Shown piece after piece: positions 2,730 to 61,535 of a stretch of DNA of 64,000 nucleotides. The DNA lies in assembly GCA_026874595.1 (NCBI GenBank), contig CM049321.1, forward strand, positions 23,987,979 to 24,051,978. Reading direction: 5' to 3'. The notes below the pieces were generated by a model, which saw only the letters and a program-made list of their open reading frames with translations, was not told the DNA's origin and made no database searches. The stretch is from Sipunculus nudus. Taxonomy: Eukaryota; Annelida; Sipuncula; Golfingiida; Sipunculidae. Position numbers and translations under genes: made by a program. Every line of letters begins with the position of its first letter. Position 1 is the first letter of the stretch.

Positions 2730-5700
2730 ATGATATTGTCGCTGACCATGAGGCAAATATTTAAAACCAACGCTCAGTATGTACTAACATCTATCATTTG
2801 TATGATCATAACAGGTAAGATTAAATTAAATCACCTATTTCTAATAAGTACATGGTTACTTTTGAATTTTTATTTTCCCAACGTTAATGACACATCATGT
2901 TCAAATAGTAATTTACCATCTGTCCCACACCTTGACCTATACATGTAATCATATGTGCTTATATGTAGTTCATAAAAAGCAAACGCTATAATCTACTTTT
3001 AGAAGCAGATGCGTTGATGCCGTTTGATACTTGGTATCGAATACAAACAGGGGGGAGGATGTTATCAATACGTTCACAACGGTTCTACGTGGCCGGGCTA
3101 CCTATGACATGCACGTTGGAATGTCTTACTTACTGCAATGCCTTTCCTTTGTGTCACGTGGCAACAATAGTAACTAGACACAGTGAATGCGTCCTTGGAC
3201 TTGCAGGCAACTGGTCTACAAATCCCACGGATATAGCCATCAACTATCACAAAATGAAAGGTATAAATTATAATTGAATGCTACATTACATCATATGAAC
3301 AATATAACAAGCATTCGATCCACAATGATGTAACCGAGTGGTATTAACGTTGGTGAAAACCCAAAATAGGCGTAAAAAGTTTGTAATACCTCTCCGTGGT
3401 CGTATACAAACTTACATTTATTTCCACACACGCCCTGTAATGAAACAATGGATGTTATTTTTTTTCTTTTTGTTGTATTTTGATGTTAAGATGATGTTTG
3501 TCTAATAAATCTGTTCAAATGGCTATCGTAAAAAATAACAGACGGACAGAAGCGAAGAGTGTTTCAAAATAGTGTACTGACCACTGTAAGTGTCCGGGGT
3601 AGCACACATATTCCGGAAACCATGGAACATTTCGGTAAGTTTCAAAACTAAACCTCACCGGTTTCCGTTTTGTTAATACTTGTTACATCTGGAGTTGTCA
3701 GTGCATATAGTTCTTGAGGAAAGAAGGGTGGAGGTTGCACCCTCGGTTCCCCTGAGGCATATTTTGAAATGTCGATGTATCCACTTTTAATTAAAAAAAA
3801 TTATTTTTTCTAGTAGTAAAGACGCAGTGGTGTTCTCTTTATGGAGAAAGGTACTACAAATTGTAATCTGTTCAGAAGAGACAATAATGCCTTGAGCACA
3901 ACGAGTGGTTTATAAATAAATTTTTCAAATGTTTGATGGACATACCATGGTGGAATAACATATCACCACAATTCATTAATCTGCCTTGTGTGGCCAGGCT
4001 GTCAGGTGTTTTATATGTTTAGGTAGAAAGAAACGTCTATTCTTAAGATTTATATATATACGTTCGACGGTAGTATTTTTAATACCTCTAGAAAAATGAT
4101 TCAAGATTAGGATTTGAGTCAGTTAACATTTATTGCAATGTGAATGAACATGTGGCATCAGTATTATACATAATGTCATTATGAATCCAAGGACCACACA
4201 CACAGCTTGACTGGTTATTTTTATTTACTGTGTTCATATTCGGGAAATTCCAGGTTTCTTTCACGTAAATAAATCGCAGGTGATCGTTAATCTCTAAAAC
4301 TGAATGAGACATTATTACATTATTTTCTATAAACAAAATGTTTATTTTCCTTTCTTTTTTTATATTTCACGCATAACAAAGTTATGCTCTTTATAACCGT
4401 GTAAATATATGTAAAAAAATATATTATTGTAAACGCAAAACACCTTCGCTGTCAGTCTATTATGAAACGCATTGTGTTTGAAAGTCCCACTGTGCCTCAA
4501 ATATTTTTCGAACGGTAGGGTATGTGTTTTTGTGGCTCTCTGCACATTCCACTTTGGGGGTCCTTGGATCTGGTCGCACTCACATTTGTCTCAGTGTCGA
4601 AATGAAAGAACAAAGAGGGCTCTATTCACAATAACTGACAAGTGCACCTTCAGGTATCTCGAGCGAGCCAATAAACTTTGAAAATACTGCGGCCCACAGG
4701 CCGTGCAAGATATATAGGTATACCAGTTACATGCTATTTTTAAAAAGAGAATAATTCTTGTTCCAAAAACTCTGACGACATGATATGAAAGAAATACACG
4801 TCTTTTACACTTTGATGCATTATAATTCTTACTGGATTACGACTGTAGTCCGAAACCATCATTTGCAGAATGCCAAGAAGAGTTCGAAGACATGTTTGAA
4901 CCATCACGAGACGGCGGCGAAAGAAAGATTCCGTCTTGCTATATTCATGTTACGGTAATTACAACATCGGGTATTATTTGCAGTTCATCATTTCTAGCAA
5001 CAGATTTACAAGAGAATTTGAGTGTTAGCTGACAGATGAACATTAACTTCTACGACGCTCTGGTATTTAGTGCTGCACTGTTATCCAATCTCCTATACCA
5101 ATAGAAAGCCTGCCACCATTCAGAAAGTGTACCAAGTATGAATTATAAAAAGAAAAATAGATAACATTCCTTTCTTCATGGTGAATGATCCAACGAGTTC
5201 ACTCTGATCTATAATATACATGGTGAAAACTATTAATGACTCGGGAATTGCCAGTAATTAAACAGCTTAGCTTTATCTCGTCGTGGAAAATGTCCCCGAT
5301 GAAGTAGTATGATACATGGAGCCAGGCCATTGTTAGGCTTTCCTTGATAGATTCTTTACTTTTCAATGTATTCCCAGATACTCTATGGTTATTTATAAAC
5401 TCCAAAATTCCACTGATTTGACACTGCCTCAAACAGCGCCAAAGTATTCACCTTTTTATTTTATTAATAGGAAACCCTGCTTTGGGATAAAGCTGAAGAT
5501 GTGTGCCAGGAGAAGGGTGGGTACATGATCACTATAGAATCAGAGGGAGAACAGCAACATGTAGCGGAATTCCTGAAACAAAGACGTGACCTCTTTATTA
5601 TATTCTTACGAAAACAATATACAATTGCTTATTCTTTGAATTTTAATACTTTTCTAAAAATTCTAGCTGAATGTGACAAACGTGGTGGAAAATTAAGAGT

Positions 5701-6228
5701 GCAAAGAAACTAACCGAATCTGGAATGACTTAATTTTTATTGATGGCTTAAACATATAATAAACAATCCCAAAATATATTAACTATACATATGTAACAAA
5801 TTTTCATTTATAAATGTAGTTACATAATAACTGGTCCAAGTTACCTTTTATTATATAAGAAAATGATACAAAATAATGCAGCATCTTCGACAGGGGATAT
5901 GGGGCATAATACGTAGGTGTTAATAACGAATCAAATAATACTTTTGTATGTTACTCATGTGACAGTGTTTTCTTCAGTAACGGTGTCTTACCACTGGCTT
6001 TCCCTGTCTTACAACCCGAACACCGAAAAATGGTACTGGACGTCGACAGGCAAAGAAATGAAGTACAACAATTGGTTTCCTGGAAATCCGCTCTTCAACG
6101 CAAAAATGTCGTATTGTGCAGTTATCAATCCAGGCGCTGGATACCACTGGGGAAACGCGGGTTGCCACTTTCAATTTAGTACTGTATGCGAGTCACCGGC
6201 AAGAAGATACAGAGGTATGAAAAAATAA
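2730..6228 (+). CDS. Secreted PAN-like / C-type lectin domain protein (five exons)
   Basis: Exons that join in phase are 2730-2814, 3003-3260, 4869-4954, 5471-5585 and 5978-6228. Junction phases are 1, 1, 0 and 1, all GT-AG. They give about 264 residues ending at a TGA-free read-through to the stop at 6228. The start may instead be the in-frame ATG at 2748. Exon 1 gives a hydrophobic leader (VLTSIICMIIT). Exon 2 has a PAN/apple-like cysteine pattern (TCTLEC, TYC, LCHV, SEC). Exons 3-5 form a C-type lectin fold: SCYI, then WDKAEDVC, ITIES, HWLSL, NNWFPGNP, SYCAV, GC and TVCE. The usual EPN/QPD and WND calcium motifs are replaced by GNP and WGN, so sugar binding through calcium is doubtful. The protein is probably an extracellular lectin-like recognition or mucus protein (family inference). 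The last exon may instead splice at AGAG/gt 6214-6215, leaving a further exon unseen. Confidence 0.72.
3797..4100. mobile_element. MITE-like repeat inside the lectin gene intron
   Basis: This segment matches 13066-13435 over its length. Shared phrases include 'tttgatggac', 'caattcatt', 'aggtgtttta', 'agaaagaaa' and 'gtctattcttaagat'. Its ends are weakly inverted: TTTTTCTAGTAGTA on the left against TTTTTCTAGAGGTA when the right end is reverse-complemented. It lies in the 1.6-kb intron between exons 2 and 3. The superfamily is unknown. Confidence 0.45.
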
Positions 6229-15348: not shown

Positions 15349-16720
15349 TGCACATGTGTATGGTTTGTCTGTATAAGTATGAGTTCTGTTGTGTCTAGCC
15401 AACTGAGATGAATAAGTGAAAAACTTTCCACATTTTCATATTGGTATGCTTACTCTCCAGTGTGAATCCTGTTGTGCGCTTTAAGATCAGAGGCGTCGGA
15501 AAAGGATTTCCCGTATAATTCACACTGGAATGGTTTTTCTCTGGTATGTGTTCTTAAATGAACTTTCAGATGGTGTGAACGTGTGAAGGCTCTACCACAT
15601 TGTTTACATATATGTGGTTTCTCCCCGGTGTGAATTTTGTTGTGTCTGGATAACAGAGAAGAATAAGAGAAACACTTCCAACACTTTTCACATTTGTATG
15701 GTTTCTCTCCAGTATGAATCATGGTGTGCATTTTTAGATCGGAGGCTTTGGAGTAGGATTTCCCACACACCTCGCATTGGAACGGTTTTTCTCTGGTATG
15801 CGTTCCCATGTGTGCATTCAGATGACATGCACGGGTGAAGCTCCTACCACATTGTTCACATTTGTATGGGTCCTCTCCCGTATGAATTCGGCAGTGAACA
15901 TTAAGATGAGAGGACCGAGAGAAAGACTTCCCACACCAATCACAAATGAATGGTTTTTCCCTGGTATGAATCTTTAATTGTTTTTTCATATCACTTTGAC
16001 GTATGAAGCATGTACCACATATTTCGCAAGGGAATGGTTTGACTCCAGAGTGGCTTCGTTTGTGTTCTTTCAGAGAAAATCAGCGCGTAAAAGATTTAAC
16101 GCACTGCTTACAACTATACTGCTTTTCTCCAGAATGACTTATAATGTACAGATAGATTATACGAGTAGTAAAAACATTTGTCACATTTTTCACATTTAAA
16201 TGGTTTCTCTCCAGTATGACTTCCGATGTGCATTTTTAGATTGGAGGCCCCAGCGAACGATTTCCCACACAATTCACACTTGAATGGTTTTTCTCCAGTA
16301 TGAGACCTAACATGCCTCTTCAGACCAGCAGAACAAATGAATCTCTTCCCACAGTGTTCACATATATATGGTTTTTCTCTTGTATGAGTTCTGGTGTTCA
16401 TATTCAGATGAGAGGACTGGGAGAAAGATTTCCCACACCATTCACATATGAATGTTTTATCTCCGATTCGAGTTCTGATGTGTGTTTGCAGATCAGCTGG
16501 ATTGTTGAAACATTTACCATCTGCTATACAGCTCTGTGATTCTTCTCCAGTGTGGGTTTTTTGTGTTCATTCAAAGAAGATGAACAAGTTAATGAATGAC
16601 TACACTGACCAGATTCCACATTTTGGGTACTGCTTTTACTGCAATCCTTGTCCTCTTCATCTTTAACAAACATATCAAGATCCTGTTGTATAAAACTTGT
16701 TGAATACATATTTGATTCAC
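15349..16720 (-). pseudogene. Decayed C2H2 zinc-finger array
   Basis: Reading down the minus strand, an exon opens after a pyrimidine-rich acceptor at 16721-16723 (start MYSTSFIQQDLDMFVKDEE). About 13 Krueppel-type fingers with TGEKP-like linkers then follow at 84-bp spacing. Clean finger runs are 16401-16114 (three fingers) and 15989-15450 (six fingers). The frame is broken several times: a one-base shift at about 16555 in an A run, a shift near 16140, an in-frame TGA at about 16082 inside a finger, and a stop plus shift at about 15448, after which one more finger (KCGKFFTYSSQLARH) is readable to about 15349. One finger has Y for its second Cys (CELYGKSF). It was formerly a nuclear DNA-binding protein. 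Truncated isoforms remain possible, but the breaks favour a pseudogene. Confidence 0.75.
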
Positions 16721-33379: not shown

Positions 33380-33770
33380 TATATATATATTTGAGGTAAC
33401 CGCCTCCATATTTTAATGCTCGCTTAACTAAATATATGTACATCTGCAGATGTACATCCCGGTTTCGGACTACGTGACAGGGCAGTATCACACGCTTCCT
33501 CACATTTTGATATCCTGGCGTTAACCAGGCCCGGTGACTACTGCACCTGCGGGCCTTGGGTTGATAATTATACCACCAAGGATCCACGAAAGGCGCACCC
33601 GTTTGTGAGTGAAACACAGCCGTTGAGCACGACCTCCCGTTTAAGCCTCCAGAGCGCTCTCCCCAGGTTGGGGCCGACCGTGAAAAACCTCACTGCCTCG
33701 GCTGAGATTCGAACTCACGATCTCCCGACTTTAATTCCTGCGCTCTACCCCTAAGCTACAGAAGCCGGTT
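33380..33770 (-). mobile_element. tRNA-derived SINE, near full length
   Basis: Read on the minus strand, a tRNA-like head starts near 33768 with an A-box TAGCTTAGGGG (33758-33748) and a B-box GTTCGAATC (33714-33706) about 44 bases apart, as in tRNA. The body ('cggtcggccccaacctgggg') and a tail with 'ggaggcggttacctc' then run into an AT repeat. The tail recurs at 52510-52632. Molluscan V-type SINEs such as RUDI should be compared; I cannot assign the family by eye. A minus-strand open frame here is not a gene. Confidence 0.8.
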
Positions 33771-37229: not shown

Positions 37230-38350
37230 AATAACTGGTGTGTCAAGTCCTCATATAGACTAGTGGTTGTGATTTCAATCGTCGCCATGGTGACGTGGTT
37301 GTATTACTGGGTCTGTCGTGTCGCATTTGTCATGTAAGTAGGGTGTTTGTGTAATTAAGTTGGTCATGTCGCTTTTGCCATGTTACTGGCTTAGTTGTGT
37401 TAGTTTATTGATTATCGTAGACTTGTTATGTAGCTGGGTTGGTTGTGTTACTGAGTTGATCTCGGATTCATCATGTTACCTTGGCCGTTGAGTTACTAGA
37501 TTGGTCGTGTCGCATGTGTCTTGTTACTGGGGTATAAATATATTTGGGTTGTTACTGATGGATTTGACCTGTTATTGGGGTGTTTGTGTTACTAAGTTGG
37601 CCGTGTCGCATTTGTCTTATTACTGGGTTGTTTGTGTTACCGATTTGATCCTCTTGGATTTGTCCTTTTACTAGGGTGTTTGTGTTACTAGGTTGGTCGT
37701 GTGGCATTTGTCTAATAACTGGTTTGGTTGTATTACCGAATTGATCCTCTTGGATTTGTCCTGTTACTAGGGTGTTTGTGTTACTAGGTTGGTCGTGTGG
37801 CATTTGTCTAATAACTGGTTTGGTTGTGTTACCGATTTGATCCTCTTGGATTTGTCCTGTTACTGGGGTGGTTGTGTTACCGGGTTGGTCATGTCGCATT
37901 TGTCTTGTTACTCGGGTAGTTGCGTTTCTGGATTGTTCCTGTTGGATTTGTCCTGTTACTGGGGTTGTTGTGTTACTGGTTTGGTCGAGTCGCATTTGTC
38001 CTGTTACTGAAATGTTTGTGTTACCGGGTTGGTCATGTCGCATTTGTCTTGTTACTCGGGTAGTTGTGTTTCTGGATTGTTCCTGTTGGATTTGTCCTGT
38101 TACTGGGGTTGTTGTGTTACTAGGTTGGTATTGTCGCATTTGTCTTGCTACAAGGGTGTTTGTGTTACTGGGTTCACCGTGTCGCATTTGTCTAGTTACT
38201 GGGTGTTTGTCTTACTAGGTGGCATAGACAGAGTCTATGCTAGGTGGGTCTTGTCGCATTTGTCTTGTTACAGGGGTGTTTGTGTTACTTGGTTGGCCGT
38301 GTCGCATTTGTCATATAATTGTTTTGGTTGTGTTACTATGGAATGGGTAT
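37230..38350. repeat. 48-bp minisatellite made of three 16-bp subunits
   Basis: Subunits look like GGGTTGGTCATGTCGC, ATTTGTCTTGTTACTC and GGGTAGTTGTGTTTCT, repeated for about 1.1 kb. Because 48 is a multiple of three, frames stay open on both strands (211 codons minus, over 110 codons plus). The translated repeat (NTTTPVTGQ-like on the minus strand) has no recognisable domain. Confidence 0.85.
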
Positions 38351-39900: not shown

Positions 39901-42900
39901 TTAACCATAGTTTTCCCATGTAAACGGCTGTCCTTCTATATGTGTATACATATGTCGCTTCCTGTCATATTTACGTGTAAAATATTTGCTACAAAACTCG
40001 CACTGAAATGGTTTTTCACCACCTTGCCTTCTTGAACACGTACTTCTACTGTAACAATTACCACAATAAACACATGTGTAGGGTCTCCCTATCGTATATC
40101 GTTTCAAGTATCTGCTTAGATCACAATGGTAACAGAAACATTCTTCACATCGCTCATGGAGGTATGTTTGCTCTTCAAGATGCACATTTACATATTTATC
40201 CATGTTACTCTTGTCTGTGAAACGTCTCCCACACTGGTTGTAGGTATATGGTTTCTCTCTGCGATGCGTCCTCATATGTTTTATCATGTTACACCTCTCA
40301 GAAAAATACCTTCCGCAAAGTTCACACTTAAAGGGTTTTTCTCCAGTGTGGGTTCTCATGTGTCTAGACAACATAGACTTGAACGGAAAACTTTTGCTGC
40401 AGTACGCACATCTGTGCGGCTTTCGATTACCCTGCACAGAATGAAACATGCTGGAATCCAACCCATGTTCTTGTTCATTGGGTATCACAGTTGACACGTG
40501 CACTGTGATTAAACTTGAGTCTTCTTGATTTGACATCATATTTTCTTCTTCATGTTGGGTACTCTGACTGGTGTTTACATGTCCTCGGGGGTCGTCACTG
40601 ATTTCAATGCACTCCGTGTCCTCTGTAACGTGGGGTGCCTCATACACATCCGGTTTTCCACAGGCACGCACAGTTTCCGCTCCAGGAGACGCAGTCGAAA
40701 TGTCATATAGAACCGGAAATTCCTCATCCACTTCCTGTTTTACATGTTCACAAACACCTTCCGCCCTGGAAGAAGTACATACTACTTCAGAACTTATCTT
40801 GCTCTTTATAGGATTGGTTTTATTATCTGCCCAAATATCCGGTGACAGGTTCACTTGAATCCAATTTGTAAAAGATCCCACTGAAAAGAAACAAATAAAA
40901 AATCAAACAATTAATACATTACCTGCATTATATTTACAACATTAAAACATTATAACTCAGTTTTTATTTCTATTCAGGTAAGACAAGCACTCATTATGTT
41001 GAGGAAAGAAAACGTTTTAAAAAAATCATATCACACATTGAGTCATTGTACGGGAAATACTTATTTTAATAACATTTGAATTTCTGCTCGATCAGGAGTT
41101 CGTGAACAGAATAGGAACCGTGGAAAATCCCTTCGAGACATAAATCGAGACCAATCGAAACCTGCATGGACTTCATGAGACCAGGAATAGCAAGGCAAAC
41201 CAAAATGGAATCCAGACTATGTCCGGTCCTTATAGAGGTGTACGTCAGTGCTTGTTGATGGAGATACAAACACATCCGAAGGTGGAAAAGAAGGCCACGA
41301 GTTTGATTTTTATGTAATATAAAAAATATATTGATTATACGTAAGACTTGGAGTCTTTCCATGCCTAAAGGCTTTGGAAAATGAGGTGATTAAGGTAAAC
41401 CCGTAGCCGTGAATATACGGCTCAGTAGGCATTTATATTGGGCTGGAAAACATGAACTGAGTCATGATACAAGCCATACGGAGAATAACATTGTACTGGT
41501 CATATAGTGGTAAACAGCCCATAATCCTAACATTAAGATACGAATCATGAATTAACACAAAAGAATACATGTGAACTCACAACCCAAATTGAAACTCCGA
41601 CTCTATTGAAACGAGTCATTTCCTGTATTGTGTGCAAATCGGCTTCCGTCCAGTAACTCGTGCTTGTATTCATGCGGTCAGAAATTCAACAAAAATTAGG
41701 ACTCCAAGACTTCGAGACCGATCAAAAGAATTGCAGTGCATGAGTATATCATCCCTGTAACATGCATACTTTTCATGGCTAGGCTCGGCAATTGTCAACA
41801 TTGATACGGTAAATAATCCAACTGAAGTAAATGTAGTTTGAAATAATGTTGAATACCATAACTTTAGATAATTTACAGTGGGTGTGTATTGTCTTGCATC
41901 AATTTTTCTCACATGTTGGTGGTCGGAATAATTCTGTGGACATTTAGAAACGTGTCCAATATTACCTATGATATTTATTTGCCGATCTGTGGCCTACACA
42001 CAAATGGAGGTTCTAATTAGATAATAAAATGCAAAAATGCACGGAAAATAGGCCTTGATAACTAGAATAAAAGCAAAGCCTTACCATATAAACTTATTTA
42101 GGAATGAACGGGGCTTTCAATAGGAAGACAATTTGAAGAGTCTGTGACGCTCTGAAAAAAAAATTTATGCGTCAAATGGAAATTAGGAGTGGCTTAATCT
42201 GAGGTGATCTGTGTCACATTTAGTAAGATTGTAATTTTTTATCACTTATAGTCCGTTCCACAATCCCTGTCCACCTGAATTTTCCGCGATTATCTCTACA
42301 CAGGACACACTTGCCAAAAAACTATTGCACCAGTGGCAAATTTTGTTTGGCAATTAAGAGGCAAAAGCGTAATTTTTGGTACCTGCTCACTATATAAATA
42401 TTATTTACTTTACGGTGGTTCATGGCGTCCCCAATAAGTGGCCATTGTTTATCTTCCTTGGAAATGGATATAAAGTAATGTGACGAAACAGTGAAGAGTG
42501 TGCACGCGAAGAATATCTGTTGTTAGTCTTGCTGTAGATGTCGGCAGCTCTTGATCCTTAGTTCCATTAATTTTGGTGCATCTTTAGTATGTCACGTCCA
42601 TTATGACTAATCCCTTAGGCCAAAAAAAAATAAAATAAAAGGTATGGTTCACAGGCACCGTCCGCATCAATTTTAAACCCCCGCATCAGGAATTTTTATT
42701 TTGGTTTTCAATTTTTTTTCAATTACCAATTTCGAACTGCAGCCACTCGTACATTTCTTTCAAGAAGATAAACTCGTATAATTTCCTTTGTTATGTAGTG
42801 CTTTTACTTGTTTAGCAATATAAATCTGTTATTATCATGTTTTTTCAGTTTTAATTTGACATTTTTATCGAAACATACAAAAAAAATAAAAATAAAAAAA

Positions 42901-47960: not shown

Positions 47961-48787
47961 CGACGTTGGAAAGTTGTCGGGATGTTATGTTATCGGAACC
48001 TTCTTGTTGTATAGATGATCATATTACCAGGATGGACTTGTTATCGATATCGTGTTACCGGGCTGATCATATTGCCAGAGTGGACATGTTTTGGGAATAG
48101 CCTTTTTGCGGGCGTGATAACATTAACAGGGTGGACATATTATCTGCATGGTCGTGTAACCAGGTTGTTTATATAACCAGGTTGGAAATTTTATCAGAAT
48201 GGATATGTTAAAAAGATGATAATATTATATAACAAGGTGGAAATGTTATCGGGATGGTCGTGTCACTGGGGTGATGATATTTCCAGGATGGAAATGTTAT
48301 CGGGATGGTCGTGTTACTGGGGTGATGATATTTCCAGGATGGAAATGTTATCGGGATGGTCGTGTTACTCGGGTGATGATATTTCCAGGATGGAAATGTT
48401 ATCGGGATGGTCGTGTCACTGGGGTGATGATATTTCCAGGATGGAAATGTTATTGGGATGGTCGTGTTACTGGGGTGATGATATTTCCAGGATGGACATG
48501 TTATCGGGATGGTCGTGTCACCAGGTGGTTAATACAACCAGGTTGGAAATGTCATCAGGGTAGATGTGTTACAAAGATGATAATATTACCAGGATGGAAA
48601 TGTTATCGGGATGGTCGTGTTACAGGGGTGATGATATTTCCAGGATGGACATATCACCGGGATGGTCGTGTTACTGGGGTAATCATATCACAAGGAAGGA
48701 CAGGTTACCGGGATGGAAGTGTTACCGGGGTAATCATATTACCAGGGTTGACATATTATGTTGATGGTCGCGTTGCCGGGTTTTATA
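47960..48787. repeat. 51-bp minisatellite made of three 17-bp subunits
   Basis: The subunits AGGATGGAAATGTTATC, GGGATGGTCGTGTTACT and GGGGTGATGATATTTCC repeat with high fidelity at 48280-48500 and more loosely on both sides. The plus-strand frames (115 and 177 codons) stay open only because 51 is a multiple of three. Confidence 0.88.
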
Positions 48788-49106: not shown

Positions 49107-49112
49107 TTTATT
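49107..49112 (-). terminator. Candidate polyadenylation signal AATAAA
   Basis: AATAAA on the minus strand, 45 bases after the stop codon at 49157. Confidence 0.5.
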
Positions 49113-49156: not shown

Positions 49157-51583
49157 TTAACATCTCCAGTATGTTCTTATTTTGGTATTTGCCGCTTGTA
49201 TATCAAAGAGCAAGTCACACTCCCAGTTACCAGGTGGCGCTTGCGTCATTGTAAATCCAAGACAACCTTTCTTGGCCACGCACTTTAAAGCACAATCGGT
49301 CTTTGCATCAACTGGCCATATTTTACCCCCTGTGCGATCGATCTTGCAGAATCTGTGTCCAGATGCTTTTTCTGGTTTTCCTGCAAAATGAGTAAAACAT
49401 GAATGTTCTGTATATTTACATTTTATTCAAGATATGATCTGCATTTTCTTTGAGGTTTTTGGAAGTTTGCTTAGTCAGCCATTAAGTCCTTTGATAAGAA
49501 AAACCTAAAGAACCACATACAAAATCTTTCGTTCCTGTCAAGTGTCTGGAAATCTGGCTTTAATATTAATACGTTGACATATGCGTTGGCTAATTTGACG
49601 ACATGATGTCCGTTCCAAGGAGCTTGTTTTTATTTTTTTCTAATCTGCTGGAAGTGATAACCAATCCAAACCACCACAGCATAATCAACCGAATAATTTT
49701 AAACACCCTGAGCGCCAGTCTCCAATTGTCCTGTCAACGACGCACAGCCAGCGGTTGTTTTCCCCTTCGTCGTGGATAAGTCGATTTCCATATTGCCGCT
49801 TGCGAGAGTGCAGGGGCATGGGATCTTGTATTCACGTTTGGAGGGATAGTGAACAAGGATCATCTGACAACAATAATCATAATCAAAAAGATTTCAATTA
49901 TATTCAATAATACTCAATGATAAAATCAGTTTGTACTCGTGCAAGACTGATAAAATTATATAACGTTTCCAGTGACGCTTTAATTGACATCCGGCATGTA
50001 TCATCTAGTATAAAGAACTTATCAAATGGTGTAAATGGTTGCATATAATTGCAGTTCACTTTCTTTTGTTTATACATACCCCCTTTAACTATTCTAAGAA
50101 TACTATGGGCTTATTTTTATTTTTATTTTCAAAGAATAATTTATATATACAAGACAAGCGATTTCCAGAATACATATTTCTGTTGTCCCTCCATTAATGA
50201 CAAATATATTCAACTTTGAATGTGATATTTATAAATAACAAAAGCAAGGATTAACATTACATATATATTAATTATTAGCAAAAGTTTGAAGTTCTATGTT
50301 CTGATTCCTATAAAATAACATATGAAAATGATTTATAATTACAATGGCAATATGAGAAAACGTTGAAATTAAATCATTTCACCTCGAAAAGTGATGTCAG
50401 CTTTTGCGTTTGAATAGCATTTTTGTTTCCATTTCCTGCTACTTTCCCTTTCATTTTGTCTTTCTTTTTAACATGTATAATATACATCTCAATGCATAGA
50501 AAAGCAGGATTATCACGGGTTTGATAAAACCACGTATCGTGTTAATGGGATTAACGTTTGCGTCACTTTCAACCATGAATTTCTAAAGCCTCGGTCACAA
50601 CCGTGATACGGTCACCGTACGGCGAGTGTTTTGGGCTATTCCGTGCGGTTGAATTATTGTGTTCAACAGGTATATTATGAGACATGTAGAATTTTGAAAG
50701 GTGACCCTGAGCCTGATTTCAATTAAAAATTTTTTTGTATTGACTCCTAAATAAGGCAATGTTGGCAACCAAGCTTCTCTTTACATCTATTATACCTATC
50801 GACTTGTAATATCCCAATAATCCTCTTACAGCAGTTTAGGTTTCGGAATTATTCTTCTTGATTATTCCCATTTTGGTGGCTTTGGTTACTTTCAAACGAC
50901 AAAAAAAAAACGATTACAGTCCAGCAGAACCTATATAATACAAAAACTACCATACCAAAAACTGATTCCTGAAATATTCTAAGACACTTGTCAGGAGAAC
51001 CTAATATCCATAAGCTCAGATTATATTAACGGCGTTCTTATGTGATCCAAAATGAAATATTCCATATGCAACATCCATTTTAAACAAATTCACTAAAATT
51101 ACCTGCGACACCTTGCTCTGCTGACCGGTGCTGTCGTGCATTAGAACGATTTTCGTGAGATTTCCGATTTCCGTGTAGTGTTCAGTCGATGCATTTATTA
51201 CTCTGGGAAAAATATTCCTTCCATAAGACATTTTAAACTTATCATCCATTAAATAGAGAGAACAATATTTATATTTAAGGTAAGTTCATTTGTATTAAAA
51301 GTATTTAAATTTAATCAACTAAAATGTTAAAATAAACAGGGTTAGAATGGTCTTTTTTTACATATAGGTTCTTTTGTAGTTCTAGTTTAATCCGTTCAAG
51401 TCCTTCTCGAAAAATAATCTACCCTGAATCCCCGAATAACATGTTTATCTTCATAAATAAAGTCTAGCTGAATACCTGAAGTAAATCGGTAAAATCGGTA
51501 TTGAGATTTTACCAACTCCTTTTTTTGCTCAAGACAACAGTTAATATCTTTCGTTTTTGCCTTGGTCATATTAAATTAATTTA

Positions 51584-51651
<68 letters not shown>

Positions 51652-54600
51652 AACATATTGGTGTTTATTAGGATTTAAAAAGAGCACATAAATTTATTCT
51701 TACCCAGATAGAAATGAGAATTGTTTTGGAATCACCTCCCAGTTGTTGGATGTGCCACATGTTCCATGCAGTTTCAAACTGAGTGACCCATTCAAATCGT
51801 TAGGGTCAATCTTCAGAGTTGCCTGCCACCTTTGAACTGAACTATCTAAAATAATGATTTACTTGCATCCATCAAGGTTTTACGCCATTTAAGAAATGTG
51901 TGTGAAAGCTTGCATTTTGCTATGTTTGCAAACAAAATTGAAAATGAACTGGACAACCAAATATTTACATGGAGACTAATTGTCTGGAACTTTTTCACAA
52001 GACCAATTGTCTTCATGCAAGTTTGGCATATATTTATCCCTATGTTTATTATTGAGTTTCAAGAACATATCCCAGATACATAAACAGAATGTCCTTCTAA
52101 ACTTATTTAGACGTTATCAAATATTTCCAGTTGTAGTACAATTGGTTCATGATAAATGAAACGCATGGACAAAGGGGAAATTAACAATGTTAAATACAAT
52201 AATTAAGTAACAGTTGTATATGACATAACCAAATATAGTCTTTAAAATTTACAAATGTTTAAGCAGAGGTAGGTTACCAATACTGTTTACACCCTATAGC
52301 AAATTGATATATTCTCTGGGAAAATATTCTTAACAGACTGACAACCTATATTCCATATGGTGCTCGACCTTGTCACGGAGATATTTAGTGATACCTATGG
52401 AGATATTAAATAAACACTTCATAAACCAGGCATGTTCAATGAAATGGGGAACAAATGAATATTACTGGAAAAAAGAAACGCCCAAAATGCGTAAAAATCA
52501 TTGACATATAAATTGAGAGGAAGCGTTTGATGCTGCCCTGTCACGAAGCCCGAAACAGAATGGAATTCTGCAGATGTACATATATATAATTTAGTTAGCA
52601 TTGAAAAAAATGGAGGCGGTTACCTCCACCAAAAATATAAAAAAATAGATTTGCAGGAGAGGAAATGATTGATGTACCTTAACGCTGGTACCTATATCTT
52701 AGAAAAAAAATATTTAACGGTCACTTAATAGCTTAATTGTGAAATGTTTTATACCATCATTGTAGAATGTTACTGTTGATTCGCCTTTAATCAGAAGTCC
52801 TGAACCTTGGAAAGTCAGTTCCTGTGTGCCCCTCTTTATGAGAATAGTCACCTATAAAATAGATATAATAAATTCCGAATTTGAATAAAAGGGATCACTT
52901 TCCATCACACAACAATCAAATCAAATACCTTTGTTCATCTGTGAGGCAAACAATGCCCATTTTATCACCATGGACAGCTACACGCTGCAGGCCCAATTCT
53001 ACAATGGTCATATCATAACCCCGTGTATGTTTTTTATACTGTTATATCGCACACACTAACCAGTTCAATGGTGAGAGTTAGTCGTGAGCTAGTAACACCG
53101 GGGAATAGAACAGACATATAAAGAAAGCCCTGAAATAAATTGTGTTTCTCTCATAAGGAAGTATGACTTTAAAACAGTAAATGTTTAGTTTGGCTAGTTT
53201 GTCTTATATAAGTAATCACGACCAAAATGTTGCACCGAGTAAAACAACAAGTCAAGGTTATGACCTTCCTTTTCCATAAAGTTCACTTACACTTGTATCT
53301 CACATGGTTGACATATATGTAATTAACTACTATACAAGCAAATAAATATAAAATTATACCTCCTCCACAGTCACTACTTTGTCTGTTCAACAAATAAATT
53401 CGTCATACACATATTCATCTCAAAACAAACACTTTTTTATTAATTACATTTAAATCAAATATTTTGCACTCAGCATACGCACAAGTTTATTACGACTTAT
53501 TAAAAAAATAAAAAAGTTAAAAGTTTTTCTCCTAAGCAAAGACATAATTTAAATATCCTCATTACCTTACTCCTCATACATACTAGTCACATAATGTACA
53601 TTCTGTTGCATCTTACACTGCATTTATAGAAAACGGTTTGCTGTTTATCGTCCCTAGGTGTTGGCAGATTGCCAGAAATGTTCCGATCAATAGGACCGTC
53701 TATTGCGGGCGCCGCATTTAGTCTTAAAAGTTTGGACCTTGCCCGAACTGTCTGCTGGCGATATACGGTAATACTACAGTCTCTCTGAGAGTCTCTCTGC
53801 ATGGAAGAAGCTGGTTTAACTAATGTAACGAATGTATTCCGGCCATTATATACATTATATACATGACTTACCTTTGAAATGATGATTTGAAAACGGGTAT
53901 TTGTGTAAATCTGAATAATTTCCACTCCTCCTGTTGGACATGTTTGCACTATTTTCGTAGTGCGAACCTTGCTATTAAAAGATAAATGCATGAGCGCGTT
54001 AAATGAATCCTCGAATGGAGACCTCTATTGTAATACCAGCAATAAGAGGTTATTATTAGTGCTTCTGAGTGGTCAAGGACAAAGTTACGGGCAATAATTG
54101 GTGGTATTTTCTTAAAGTTACCTATATACATACCCGAGTTTGTTAAATATACATGATTTTTAATGCGTTCTCCTAAAAAAAGTATGGTGTATGCCCGTAG
54201 TTTCTCCTTAAAATAGTTTTGAAGCTTCCACCCGGTGTTTTCATGTAATTTCAAGTTTAACACTGTACAGGACTTTACGGAAAACAGAGATAATCATAAC
54301 AAAACAATAACAAAGTATAGTGCAGAGGATTTGGATACAGTAAGTCCATGTTCCGGGGTGGATTTGCTAAAAAAACTTTTGTATTCAACTCTAAGTTTTG
54401 AATTTCTAAGATACACATATAAGGCAAAAAAAAAATGAAAAAAATGTATAGTTCTCAGGCAATACCCGCATCTATCCCCCCCCCCCCCCCCGGATCAAAT
54501 TTTTTTATTTTGATTTTCGTCTTGAAAAAAGTTAAAATAATACAATTTCTATAAGATTTCCTTTGCTATGTAGTGCTTTTACATGTTTAGCCTTAAAAAT

Positions 54601-56773
54601 CTGTTGTTTTCAGGCTTTTCCCTAATCATATGACATTTTTATGGAAACATAAAAAATAGGTCAACAGTAAAATATCGCCCGCCCACACTGATTTATGAAA
54701 AAAAATGCCTAGGAACCATACCTTTTTATCCTTTGGCCTTATTGCAAATATTTATGTAGCTGTACATCAATGCACAGGGGCGGATCCAGGATTTAGGAAA
54801 AGGGGGGGGGGGGTCCAAGCAAGGAGGACTAATTGAAAATCCTAAAATAAAAGGTCATCAGGTCTTGAATAGGGGGTCCAGGCCGCATAATTTCGTCTAA
54901 ACCCTTCGGGTGAAGAAGGGGGGGGGGGGGCTGCGGACCTCCTGGACACCCCCCCCCCCCCCCCGGATCCGCTTCTGATGCAATTGTAACATGCCACAGT
55001 CTTACGTTGGCCTCGCACAACTGCAACTAGTATTTTTCTACGACCAGTGTTTGGTTATGACTATATGTATGAATGACAGAAGCAAGGTTGTCGCTGTCTA
55101 AGGATCTTTCATGAATCGCCGCATGTCCTCCATGAAACACTTAAAATCTTATTTGAAACCAGTCACACACAAATCAGATCTTACAACTGACGGCCTGGCG
55201 TTGCGAAAATCATTTATCTAGTTTTATGGGACTTTTAATACCAGTTGCAATACGACAACGCACCTTTGTCAAGAGAATTTCATAAAATAGCCACGCCGCT
55301 GTTTAAGGTCACTTGATTTGTTGCTCCTTAGTCCCATGCTTATGTTTATTCATAAATGAATATGCGATTAAGGTCGCAAAGAGTTCATGGATAGGTCAAT
55401 TGAAGACATCGATACCAGTTTATGAAGCCAGTCAATACGACATCATTCGTCATCGAACTTTGTGACATCATTATTATATTGTAAGCAGCTCTCATTACCA
55501 TGGGCATGGACGAATTTCTGTGTAGGAGCGTTTATTGGGGCTCATTATCATAATTAGGTTAAAAGGGCGGAGCATTTGGCCTGTGGTGGACAGGTCAATT
55601 CTACGCTCTTAATTAAAAGATTATATTACTTACATATTTCTCAAACTTATCCTTTAGCCACAAACATCAAAGGAGTCATTCACATGCCAATGGTTATTAC
55701 ATGTCTACAACATGAAAAACTCACTTTGCTTTCCGTAGTGTTTTGATAAGAAGTGTTTTAGATGTATTCGCTCCAGACGGTCCAGTAAGCCCTATCTCCA
55801 GCCTAATATTCTTCGCATAGGTTTTCGACGTTCTAAAGCTTAGGCGCATCATACAGCTTTCCCCGTCTGTCATTTATGAAAAGAGAGAGAGAAAAAAACA
55901 TGCTGTAATTGATTTTTACACTTAGAATAAAAAATGACCAAGGTTATACAGATCATTCGTTGCTTTACAGGTAATTCTATAATGTATGTCAGTGTCCAAC
56001 GGGGCTCTAGTTTAAAGAGATATATGCGTATGCCCCATAAATTACACAAGCCATGATACAAGGTACAGCAAACACGGAACATTGCGTAATCAGCATACAT
56101 ATACATGAATACCTGCCGTGATTCTCAATTATCAGTGTTTTATCTACGACTTATTAATTAACTTTGTTCAATCATTTTTTAATACTCATAGATGTAGCAT
56201 TTTATTTTATTCCATAAATGTATATATTCATCAACACCTTTAAAACGAATCGTTCCATCCATTGTTCCAGTTTTACTTAATTGTAATATTGATTTTTATA
56301 TTTCCTTGTGTTATAAATATCATAATTTATGGGAAAAACAGCACACAAATATGGGCACTCAGGAATATTTAATAAATTAACTATAACTGCATAATGTGCC
56401 CTGTAAATTTGCGGCGATAACTCTTCTTATACCACTTTTCTGGAGATTTTAAAAATAAATCCCTTTACACCAAGGATATTTAAACGCGTACGTTTGGTGA
56501 ATGCAGAAAGTAATATGCTGTTACAGAAATGCGTTGTCGACAAGTCACTTATCTTACAGTATAGTAGTAATAAATGGAACTGTTTTAAGATCAGGTTTGT
56601 TATAAATTTATTCGAACTCAAAAATCTCAATATCAATCAGACACCAAAAGTCTGAGGGAGTTTAAACAAGATAATTAATAGAAGATATGGTATCCATAAT
56701 TAATACCTGCAGAAACATAGCCACATAGAACGGTCGGTAAGAGCAATACCCAGGAGGTCTTCATCATATACAT
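49157..56773 (-). CDS. Secreted double-PLAT-like / PAN-like protein (nine exons)
   Basis: Exons in transcript order are 56773-56707, 55866-55725, 53971-53872, 53129-53061, 52851-52755, 51845-51704, 51202-51103, 49863-49707 and 49380-49157. All junctions are GT-AG and phases match (1,2,0,0,1,2,0,1), giving 365 residues. Exon 1 is a signal peptide (MKTSWVLLLPTVLCGYVSA). Exons 2-5 form one PLAT-like repeat (IRLEIGLTGPSG; VEIIQIYTNT). Exons 6-8 form a second (WQATLKID; LSLKLHGTCG; IGNLTKIVLMHDSTG; YKIPCPCTLA), which resembles PLAT/LH2 strands well, although the usual terminal Trp-Leu is absent. Exon 9 is a PAN/apple-like cysteine module (RFCKID; DCALKC; GCLGFTM; WECDLL) ending TYWRC. No hydrolase domain is present. 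It probably acts outside the cell in lipid, membrane or glycan contact (inference). Introns carry a MITE, a hAT MITE and a SINE tail. Confidence 0.82.
51590..51649. repeat. (AT)n microsatellite in a PLAT-gene intron
   Basis: Thirty AT units just downstream of the exon that ends at 51704. Confidence 0.95.
52510..52632 (+). mobile_element. SINE tail, 5'-truncated copy
   Basis: It matches the tail of the SINE at 33380-33770 ('gaggaagcg', 'tgccctgtcacg', 'gatgtacatatat', 'ggaggcggttacctc') but lacks the tRNA-like head. It lies in the intron between exons 5 and 6 of the PLAT gene. Confidence 0.75.
54423..54738. mobile_element. PIF/Harbinger-like MITE, copy 3
   Basis: It has the same ends and internal phrases as copies 1 and 2 ('cctttgctatgtagtgcttt', 'aggaaccatacctttttat', then 'ggcc' and TTA). 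It lies in intron 2 of the PLAT gene. The C15 run near 54478-54492 is internal. Confidence 0.72.
54775..54977. mobile_element. hAT-like MITE with G/C runs
   Basis: The left end is CAGGGGCGGATCC and the right end, reverse-complemented, is CAGAAGCGGATCC (11 of 13). ATGCA flanks both ends, a partial match to an expected 8-bp duplication. Long G and C runs lie inside each arm. Confidence 0.65.
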
Positions 56774-60219: not shown

Positions 60220-61535
60220 AACTGGATGACATTCACCATAGGCAAAACTGGTGTCGCCACCCGCAACCACTTATGCACAGCTTCCATCTGTTCATCTGCC
60301 TTGGGATGATATCACTCATATCTTACCAGTGGTTTGACTTTTCCACCTGAAATTTTGCAGGTTTATACATCCTTGGCAGTTTTCTCGATTTATAACAGAT
60401 GGCGCCATCCACATCTACGTTTACTCTGCAGACATCTAAGCTCATATCTGAAGAATGGTTTGACCGATTGGGCCAAAATTGTGCATGTGTACAGATCTAA
60501 CATAGCTCTTCATCATCGGCAAAACTTGTGGTGCCACCTGCAACCATTAATGCACAGCACCCATCTATTCATGTCCCTTGGGATAAAATCACTCATATCT
60601 CAGTAGTGGTTTGACTTATCAGCCTGAAATTCTGCAGGTTTAAACATCCTGGACAGCTTTCTCGATTTTATGACAGGGGGCGCCACCTACATTCACGTTT
60701 ACTCTGCAGGCATCCAAGCTCATATATCTCGGGAACCGTTTGACCGATTGGGCCAAAATTTTACATGTGTATAGATCTCACAAAGCTCTTCATCATTAAC
60801 AAAACTGGTGGCACCACCTGGAACCATTTATGCACAGCATCAATCTGTTCATCTGCCTTGGTGTAAAATCACTCATATCTCAGCAGTGACTGAAATTTTG
60901 CAGGTTTATACATCCTGGAAAGCTTTCTCGATTTTATGACAGGTGGCGCCACCTACATTCAGTTTTACTCTGCAGACATCCAAACTCATATCGCGGAAAC
61001 CGTTTGACCGATTGGGCCTAAATTTTGTATGAGCATAGATCTCAAAAAGCTCTTCATCATAGGCAAAACCGGTGGTGCCATCTGCAACCACTGATGCACA
61101 GCATCAATCTGTTCATCTGCCTTGGTGTAAAATCACTCATATCTCAGAAGTGGTTTGACTTATCCACCTGAAATTTTGCAAGTATATACATCCTCGACAG
61201 TCTTTTTATGACAGGTGGCGCCACCTACATTCACTTTACTCTGCAGACTTCCAAGCTCATATCTCGGGAACCGTTTGACCGATTTAGCCAAAATTGTGCT
61301 TGTGTATAGATCTCAGATAGCTCTTCATCTTAAGCAAAACAGGTGGCGCCACCTGCAACCATTTCGACAGCCTCCGTCTGTTTGATTGCCTTGGAATAAA
61401 ATCACTCATATCTCAGCAGTGGTTTGACTTATCCACCTGAAATTTTGAAGATGTATACATTCTGGCCAATTTTCTCGATTTTATGACAGGTGGCACCACC
61501 TACATTCACGTTTACGCTGCAGACATTAATGCTAA
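60220..61535. repeat. ~270-bp tandem array, about five units
   Basis: 'atcactcatatct' recurs at about 60308, 60588, 60867, 61130 and 61400. Each unit has two GGTGGCGCCACC-like palindromes plus 'caggtttatacatcct', 'cgattttatgacaggtgg', 'gtttgaccgattgggcc' and 'tctgttcatctgcctt'. The unit is the reverse complement of single-copy sequence at about 18030-18330. Open frames are repeat artefacts. Confidence 0.85.

Follow-up and report, generated by a model that had tools for sequence, protein, structure and literature searches.

Gene structure on the minus strand

The question raised by this locus is whether a chain of short open segments in the genome of Sipunculus nudus is a gene at all and, if so, what kind of protein it encodes. 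The stretch analyzed, called the window here, comprises 64,000 nt of contig CM049321.1 of assembly GCA_026874595.1 (C16:23987979-24051978, with C16 standing for this contig), and searches for relatives covered 1.4265 Gb of the same genome. A first-pass annotation, made from the sequence alone, had proposed nine in-frame exons for a secreted protein with a signal peptide, a pair of PLAT domains, and a terminal PAN module. The exons run on the minus strand from window position 56773 to 49157 (C16:24037135-24044751); they form a real gene, a member of a real small family. On balance, we lean toward a secreted non-enzymatic modular protein in which a signal peptide is followed by two beta-sandwich modules derived from PLAT, of which the first has diverged strongly, and by a terminal disulfide-bonded PAN/apple module.

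The joined frame is 1098 nt long (365 codons and a stop codon), all eight introns are GT-AG, and the frame is unbroken across every join. Exon 1 (56707..56773) contains the start codon and a hydrophobic N-terminal signal sequence, judged by eye (MYMMKTSWVLLLPTVLCGYVSA), which bears out the annotated signal peptide. PLAT-like module 1 begins with exon 2 (55725..55866, 142 nt, phase 1 to 2), continues through exon 3 (53872..53971, 100 nt, phase 2 to 0) and exon 4 (53061..53129, 69 nt, phase 0 to 0, the least conserved of the nine), and ends with exon 5 (52755..52851, 97 nt, phase 0 to 1). The second, probable PLAT module is encoded by exon 6 (51704..51845, 142 nt, phase 1 to 2), exon 7 (51103..51202, 100 nt, phase 2 to 0), and exon 8 (49707..49863, 157 nt, phase 0 to 1). 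Exon 9 (49157..49380, 224 nt, phase 1 to the stop codon) encodes the PAN/apple cap and ends in YWRC, and 44 nt past the stop codon there is an AATAAA (49107..49112, minus strand), a possible polyadenylation signal. Exons 2 and 6 agree in length and phases, as do exons 3 and 7. Exons 4 and 5 together (166 nt) and exon 8 both run from phase 0 to phase 1, with exon 4 being the first half of a module 1 segment whose module 2 counterpart is a single exon. The joined protein has four N-glycosylation sequons and 13 cysteines.

Frame-open segments of 50–250 nt bounded by AG and GT are common in this stretch (1385 candidates), which makes a chain in frame weak evidence by itself. When 20,000 random chains were tried from the same DNA, with the real exons included in the pool, two consecutive pairs equal in length and phase were present in 5 of the 11,089 that could be completed in frame. 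The guanine-plus-cytosine content is 0.44 in exons versus 0.33 in introns, and codon usage trained on zinc-finger frames in the window did not separate the exons from non-coding background segments. Poor donors are the weak point of the gene model: those of exons 1, 5, and 8 stand at the 84th, 68th, and 82nd percentiles of all GTs. Left unspliced, exon 8 would read through two further codons (G-V) to a stop and yield a protein without PAN. Its weak donor (GG^gtgttt, where ^ marks the exon end) is backed by the relatives described below, since all three carry a better-formed GT at the equivalent place, giving a 157-nt exon.

Paralogous copies in the same genome

An intact paralogue, copy B, lies 9.4 Mb away on the same contig (C16:14593949-14605161) and keeps all nine exons, including a homologous first exon, with order and phases preserved. 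Its exons measure 64, 136, 88, 57, 97, 142, 100, 157, and 224 nt, all eight introns are GT-AG, and the 354-residue product aligns end to end with that of the window copy. Exon 4 of copy B was located via its splice sites, its frame, and the shared start KGF-x-Y-x-S; at the DNA level, exon 4 matches in copy B and in a remnant designated A3 (10 and 14) were no better than shuffles (14). Two damaged copies, A1 (C16:22573766-22581652) and A2 (C16:22589862-22597870), have exons 5–9 open, and the lengths of these five exons (97, 142, 100, 157, and 224 nt) are identical in all four copies. Exon 3 carries a frameshift in A1 and a stop codon in A2. Exon 4 was not recovered as an exon in either, where homologous DNA is present (25 and 27 versus 16 and 14 in shuffles) without an acceptor AG. 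Remnants of a further copy were found at ~22.609–22.617 Mb on C16.

We judge the gene to be more than chance because exon lengths and phases repeat, relatives exist, and the relatives keep the exon order. The nine annotated exons are confirmed in this respect, with eight of eight GT-AG introns, 365 residues, and an intact nine-exon paralogue. A chance chain of open segments was considered and ruled out by the exon-length repeats together with copy B, and a PAN exon belonging to a separate gene was ruled out by the same linkage in four copies. Viral contigs scanned with the PAN exon and prokaryote genomes scanned with the second PLAT module plus PAN yielded no relative, as expected for an animal gene.

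The terminal PAN exon

Apple/PAN modules are marked by the pattern C-x3-C-x(4-6)-C-x2-F, C-x-L, and an outer cysteine pair, and their fold is a helix packed on a beta-sheet. Six cysteines encoded by exon 9 (residues 303, 321, 325, 331, 346, and 365) have this spacing, with C-x3-C-x5-C-x2-F, C-x-L, and an outer pair, and the pattern is kept in all three relatives. Exon 9 alone was matched by Pfam PAN_1 (PF00024, E = 0.005, 17.1 bits) and PAN_4 (PF14295, E = 0.028, 14.9 bits), and the whole joined protein by PAN_1 (E = 0.06). Copies B, A1, and A2 have two extra cysteines in this module, where D and W stand in the window copy; the paired loss fits a disulfide between them. A PAN profile built from the four copies had three weak matches in PDB (E = 1.7 to 7.9), the last to micronemal protein 4, which we take to be an apple-domain protein.

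Several results speak against a PAN assignment. Both Pfam scores for exon 9 fall below the gathering cut-offs (21.4 bits for PAN_1 and 27 bits for PAN_4), and across the four copies PAN_1 was reported in one and PAN_4 in two. The sole match of exon 9 in PDB was Nup153 (E = 0.11), with no PAN relative, and a single-sequence AlphaFold2 model of the exon, with one helix followed by three strands, was poor (mean predicted local distance difference test score of 45.8). Taken together, the six cysteines in apple spacing and the sub-threshold Pfam matches leave the PAN identity of exon 9 well supported at the level of sequence, and the annotated cap stands.

Related terminal exons were identified behind other modules. 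Three kringles (E = 3.9e-25, 3.7e-22, and 8e-18) precede a PAN-like terminal exon at 55.09 Mb on contig C15 (L051, C15:55087001-55092400), and a SUEL lectin exon (E = 4.1e-19) precedes another at 68.28 Mb on contig C7 (L052, C7:68279001-68284100). Identity of these PAN-like exons with exon 9 is 28% and 25%, respectively; both end in Y-x-R-C-stop, and in our reading both have a phase-1 acceptor. Pfam recognized neither as PAN, and their linkage to the upstream kringle and SUEL exons is by position, in gene models that are incomplete. Shuffling has likely placed a phase-1 terminal PAN exon downstream of several kinds of module. The cap therefore does not look special to the window gene, which would be one of several PAN-capped shuffled proteins. 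Elsewhere in the window, an open segment on the plus strand (2969-3274) has a PAN-like cysteine pattern and no Pfam match, and a C-type lectin segment (5917-6225, plus strand, Pfam Lectin_C E = 2.9e-08) lies 2.6 kb beyond it; the two are possibly parts of another PAN-plus-lectin gene.

Sequence evidence for PLAT modules

A PDB search with module 2 of the window copy produced a sole match (E = 0.93), which falls in register inside the PLAT region of DENND5A. Comparison PLATs were gathered by PDB search, with DENND5A chosen as the top match and the lipoxygenases reached via DENND5A and ALOX5 searches. Smith-Waterman z scores for module 2 were 8.1 with DENND5A, 7.3 with 11R-LOX, and 6.8 with AOS-LOX (0 of 1000 shuffles as good in each case), and 3.5 with a polycystin-1 fragment. 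A small PLAT profile, which finds all eight PF01477 loci fetched from this genome, scored module 2 of the window copy at 19.9 bits (equaled by 0 of 2000 shuffles), and for module 2 of copy B the count was 5 of 2000 shuffles. The joined protein returned only an unrelated chain from PDB, a phage-protein chimera (E = 0.25), which was set aside.

A substantial body of results weighs against a PLAT pair. Pfam PLAT (PF01477) was not reported for the joined protein, for either module, or for the second module of any of the four copies; among the 41 best-candidate PF01477 matches listed for the genome, which include clusters on contigs C14 and C4, none lies at the four-copy loci. Module 2 is unmatched in ALOX5 (z = -0.4) and ALOX15B (z = 1.0). 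With a wider profile, made of the small profile and those eight genome loci, the score of module 2 drops to 8.0 bits in the window copy (1 of 1000 shuffles) and is borderline in copy B (43 of 1000), with A1 and A2 at chance (150 and 388 of 1000). Profile-profile comparison with the PLAT set gave a probability of 12% for module 2 and 0.3% for module 1, and the four-copy module 2 profile matched no PDB entry at E values up to 10. Module 1 is near chance with the small profile (37 of 2000 shuffles, and 238 of 2000 for copy B), and the wider-profile test gave 12 and 14 of 1000 shuffles. An alignment of the two modules is no better than chance (equaled by 1875 of 2000 shuffles), and exon pairs between them are unconvincing (75, 247, and 984 of 2000 shuffles). 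Finally, neither module of the window copy has the PLAT tryptophans (GW-F/Y-L-D-K and RWL) at the corresponding positions. Without these typical residues, the modules cannot simply be taken to bind membranes in the usual way.

Judged from sequence alone, module 2 is probably PLAT and module 1 only possibly so. A Pfam check suggested with the first-pass annotation gave PAN matches, at scores under the cut-offs, and no PLAT match. For the proposed PLAT pair, sequence supports module 2 of the window copy and intron anatomy supports both modules; it finds no support from Pfam or from the sequence of module 1.

Intron anatomy of PLAT units

PLAT introns were surveyed in ten fetched 10-kb stretches around genome PLAT matches, which contain 46 hits. 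A canonical unit, L037, has exons of 145, 103, and 133 nt with phases 1-2-0-1, and its second exon ends at WYLDK^V; its last donor is weak, and the phase-1 end is our reading, as none was scored there. In unit L036, the third exon is 136 nt long, runs from phase 0 to phase 1, and has a strong donor. The modules of the window gene (142/100/69+97 nt and 142/100/157 nt) have the same 1-2-0-1 phases as L037 and share its PLAT intron pattern. The junction of exons 7 and 8 is at the aligned place of the W-x-L-D-K^V intron, which is frequent in the canonical PLATs of this genome. A phase-0 donor was scored at W-x-x-x-K^ in 7 of the 46 hits, and about eleven run through without an intron; this intron is common without being universal. 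The middle intron of L037 is one codon further on than that of the window gene, and a middle intron in phase 2 was seen in one other unit (L041:7861), with phase 0 in most others that have a scored donor. Intron anatomy argues well, though not decisively, for descent of both modules from PLAT, and the identity of the first module as PLAT rests on exon anatomy, not sequence.

Substitution rates and constraint

Rates were compared across exons 5–9. The ratio of non-synonymous to synonymous differences (pN/pS) between the window copy and copy B is 0.64 (bootstrap 0.52–0.78), and it is 0.88 and 0.82 against A1 and A2, with both intervals including 1. Constraint is not evident for exon 9 alone against copy B (0.91, 0.63–1.56), a result that counts against the proposed protein. 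Synonymous divergence of the window copy is 0.34–0.38 from A1 and A2 and 0.90 from copy B. Parsimony assigned 17 synonymous and 44 other changes to the window branch (omega about 0.9), and 8 synonymous and 44 amino-acid-changing substitutions to the branch shared by A1 and A2 (omega near 1.9). The excess on the A1/A2 branch suggests decay, relaxed constraint, or diversification; positive selection is not called, as these copies are damaged. Because constraint is weak while the whole frame stays open, we infer that the gene evolves fast and is not dead.

Proposed protein and alternative explanations

In lipases and lipoxygenases, PLAT domains attach to membranes or to partner proteins; the ligands of PAN modules are proteins or sugars. 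The window gene was probably assembled by exon shuffling and duplication, because both boundaries of each module are in phase 1 and related PAN exons of the same phase stand behind other modules. Its product would act extracellularly as a binding adaptor and not as an enzyme. The PLAT pair could take hold of a surface (lipid, membrane, or protein) and the PAN cap could bind a second partner, although the identity of the partners is guesswork. The role would be a fast-evolving one, for example in recognition of microbes, gametes, or matrix. Recognition proteins that act in immunity or reproduction typically have several copies, some of them damaged, and are weakly constrained; these features do not indicate which of the two might apply. 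A more ambitious version is doubtful: that this is a lineage-specific secreted PLAT-PLAT-PAN family under diversifying selection, in which worn PLATs recognize variable microbial or gamete targets and a shared PAN docking cap links PLAT, kringle, and lectin proteins to a common partner or matrix.

The gene could also be as described with PLAT limited to the second module, the first being an unrelated beta-rich domain or too diverged to work, so that function would run through the second PLAT and PAN. Module 1 scores close to shuffles, and its exons 3 and 4 are damaged in A1 and A2 while exons 5–9 are open, both of which this explanation accommodates. We nonetheless think it unlikely, since exons 2 and 3 reproduce the lengths and phases of exons 6 and 7 exactly, exons 4 and 5 share the phases of exon 8, and the 1-2-0-1 pattern of module 1 recurs in canonical PLAT unit L037. 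It is improbable that neither module is PLAT and that an unnamed beta-sandwich produced a chance peak in one member of the family. Such a peak would be consistent with strong PLAT scoring being confined to the window copy (A1 and A2 are at shuffle level), with a four-copy profile that has no PDB match, and with the silence of Pfam. It is harder to reconcile with the alignment of module 2 in register with three PLATs, each beyond the reach of 1000 shuffles and two of them lipoxygenases that were not selected as the top match, or with an intron site and phases common to the window gene and canonical PLATs.

We give marginally less credence still to the window copy decaying toward a pseudogene, the state that A1 and A2 seem to be approaching. 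Its weak donors at exons 1, 5, and 8, its lost cysteine pair, and the near-neutral omega of its branch all point in that direction, as do the frameshift, stop codon, and missing exon 4 acceptors of A1 and A2. Against decay, all 365 codons are open despite the synonymous divergence that separates the window copy from A1, A2, and B, and the two extra cysteines have been lost as a pair, as would be expected where folding still matters. The secreted protein with two PLAT-derived modules and a PAN cap remains our preferred reading.

Surroundings of the gene

Several other features were seen in the window. A 51-base minisatellite of about 15 copies (48016-48774) lies just beyond the 3' end of the gene, and a tandem array of 264–271-base units (60243-61526, about 4.7 copies, 82% matches) lies upstream. 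A second array at 37295-38220 has 48/96-base units. Two long open frames on the minus strand (39904-40902 and 15453-16566) encode C2H2 zinc-finger arrays, as judged by eye, and a tRNA match at 33694-33765 (minus strand) with 34.1 bits (gathering score 29) is possibly a tRNA-derived repeat.

Comparison with known systems

Exon shuffling in animals has often made new combinations of known modules. The terminal PAN exon behind PLAT-like, kringle, and SUEL lectin exons offers a testable case of shuffling building secreted binding proteins. More generally, short-exon animal genes with domains below the Pfam threshold can be recovered through repeated exon lengths and phases, a match to a canonical unit, and paralogues.

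The first-pass annotation knew of no described family with this architecture, and that claim agrees with the open-access literature, in which no paper describing a PLAT-PAN combination was found, a result that is not proof of its being unpublished. Four papers (PMC12001498, PMC4890752, PMC6626399, and PMC6299612) are, in their accessible parts, unrelated to such an architecture. The further claim, that PLAT modules are unusual without a lipase or lipoxygenase domain, looks overstated, as single-PLAT-domain proteins are known in spider mites according to the accessible part of one report (PMC6288829). PLAT matches, taken without regard to neighboring enzyme domains, also occur in clusters in the S. 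nudus genome. The spider-mite proteins form an expanded family named for a lone PLAT domain, with PF01477 reported in 3 of 20 members of the group, so that, like the window gene, they mostly go unreported by Pfam PLAT. In contrast to the window gene, they have one PLAT, no PAN is mentioned with it in the accessible text, and PAN-domain proteins form a separate group (PMC6288829).

Within the same genome, the closest comparisons are to the clusters on C14 and C4, presumably multi-PLAT genes of LOXHD1 type. They share with the window gene the 1-2-0-1 module phases (seen in L037) and the W-x-L-D-K^V intron (7 of 46 hits). Unlike the window gene, they pass the Pfam PLAT cut-off; the window gene has only two, very diverged modules, to which a signal peptide and a PAN cap are added. 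Module 2 matches in register the PLAT/LH2 domains of animal lipoxygenases (11R-LOX and AOS-LOX) and of DENND5A (Rab6-interacting protein 1), whereas the joined protein has no lipoxygenase or DENN domain by Pfam and is missing the PLAT tryptophans. The kringle-kringle-kringle-PAN region on C15 and the SUEL lectin-PAN region on C7 have a terminal PAN exon related to that of the window gene, with kringles or a SUEL lectin upstream where the window gene has PLAT-like modules instead. Set beside these systems, the window gene appears to combine known building blocks in a new way rather than to encode a new kind of protein.

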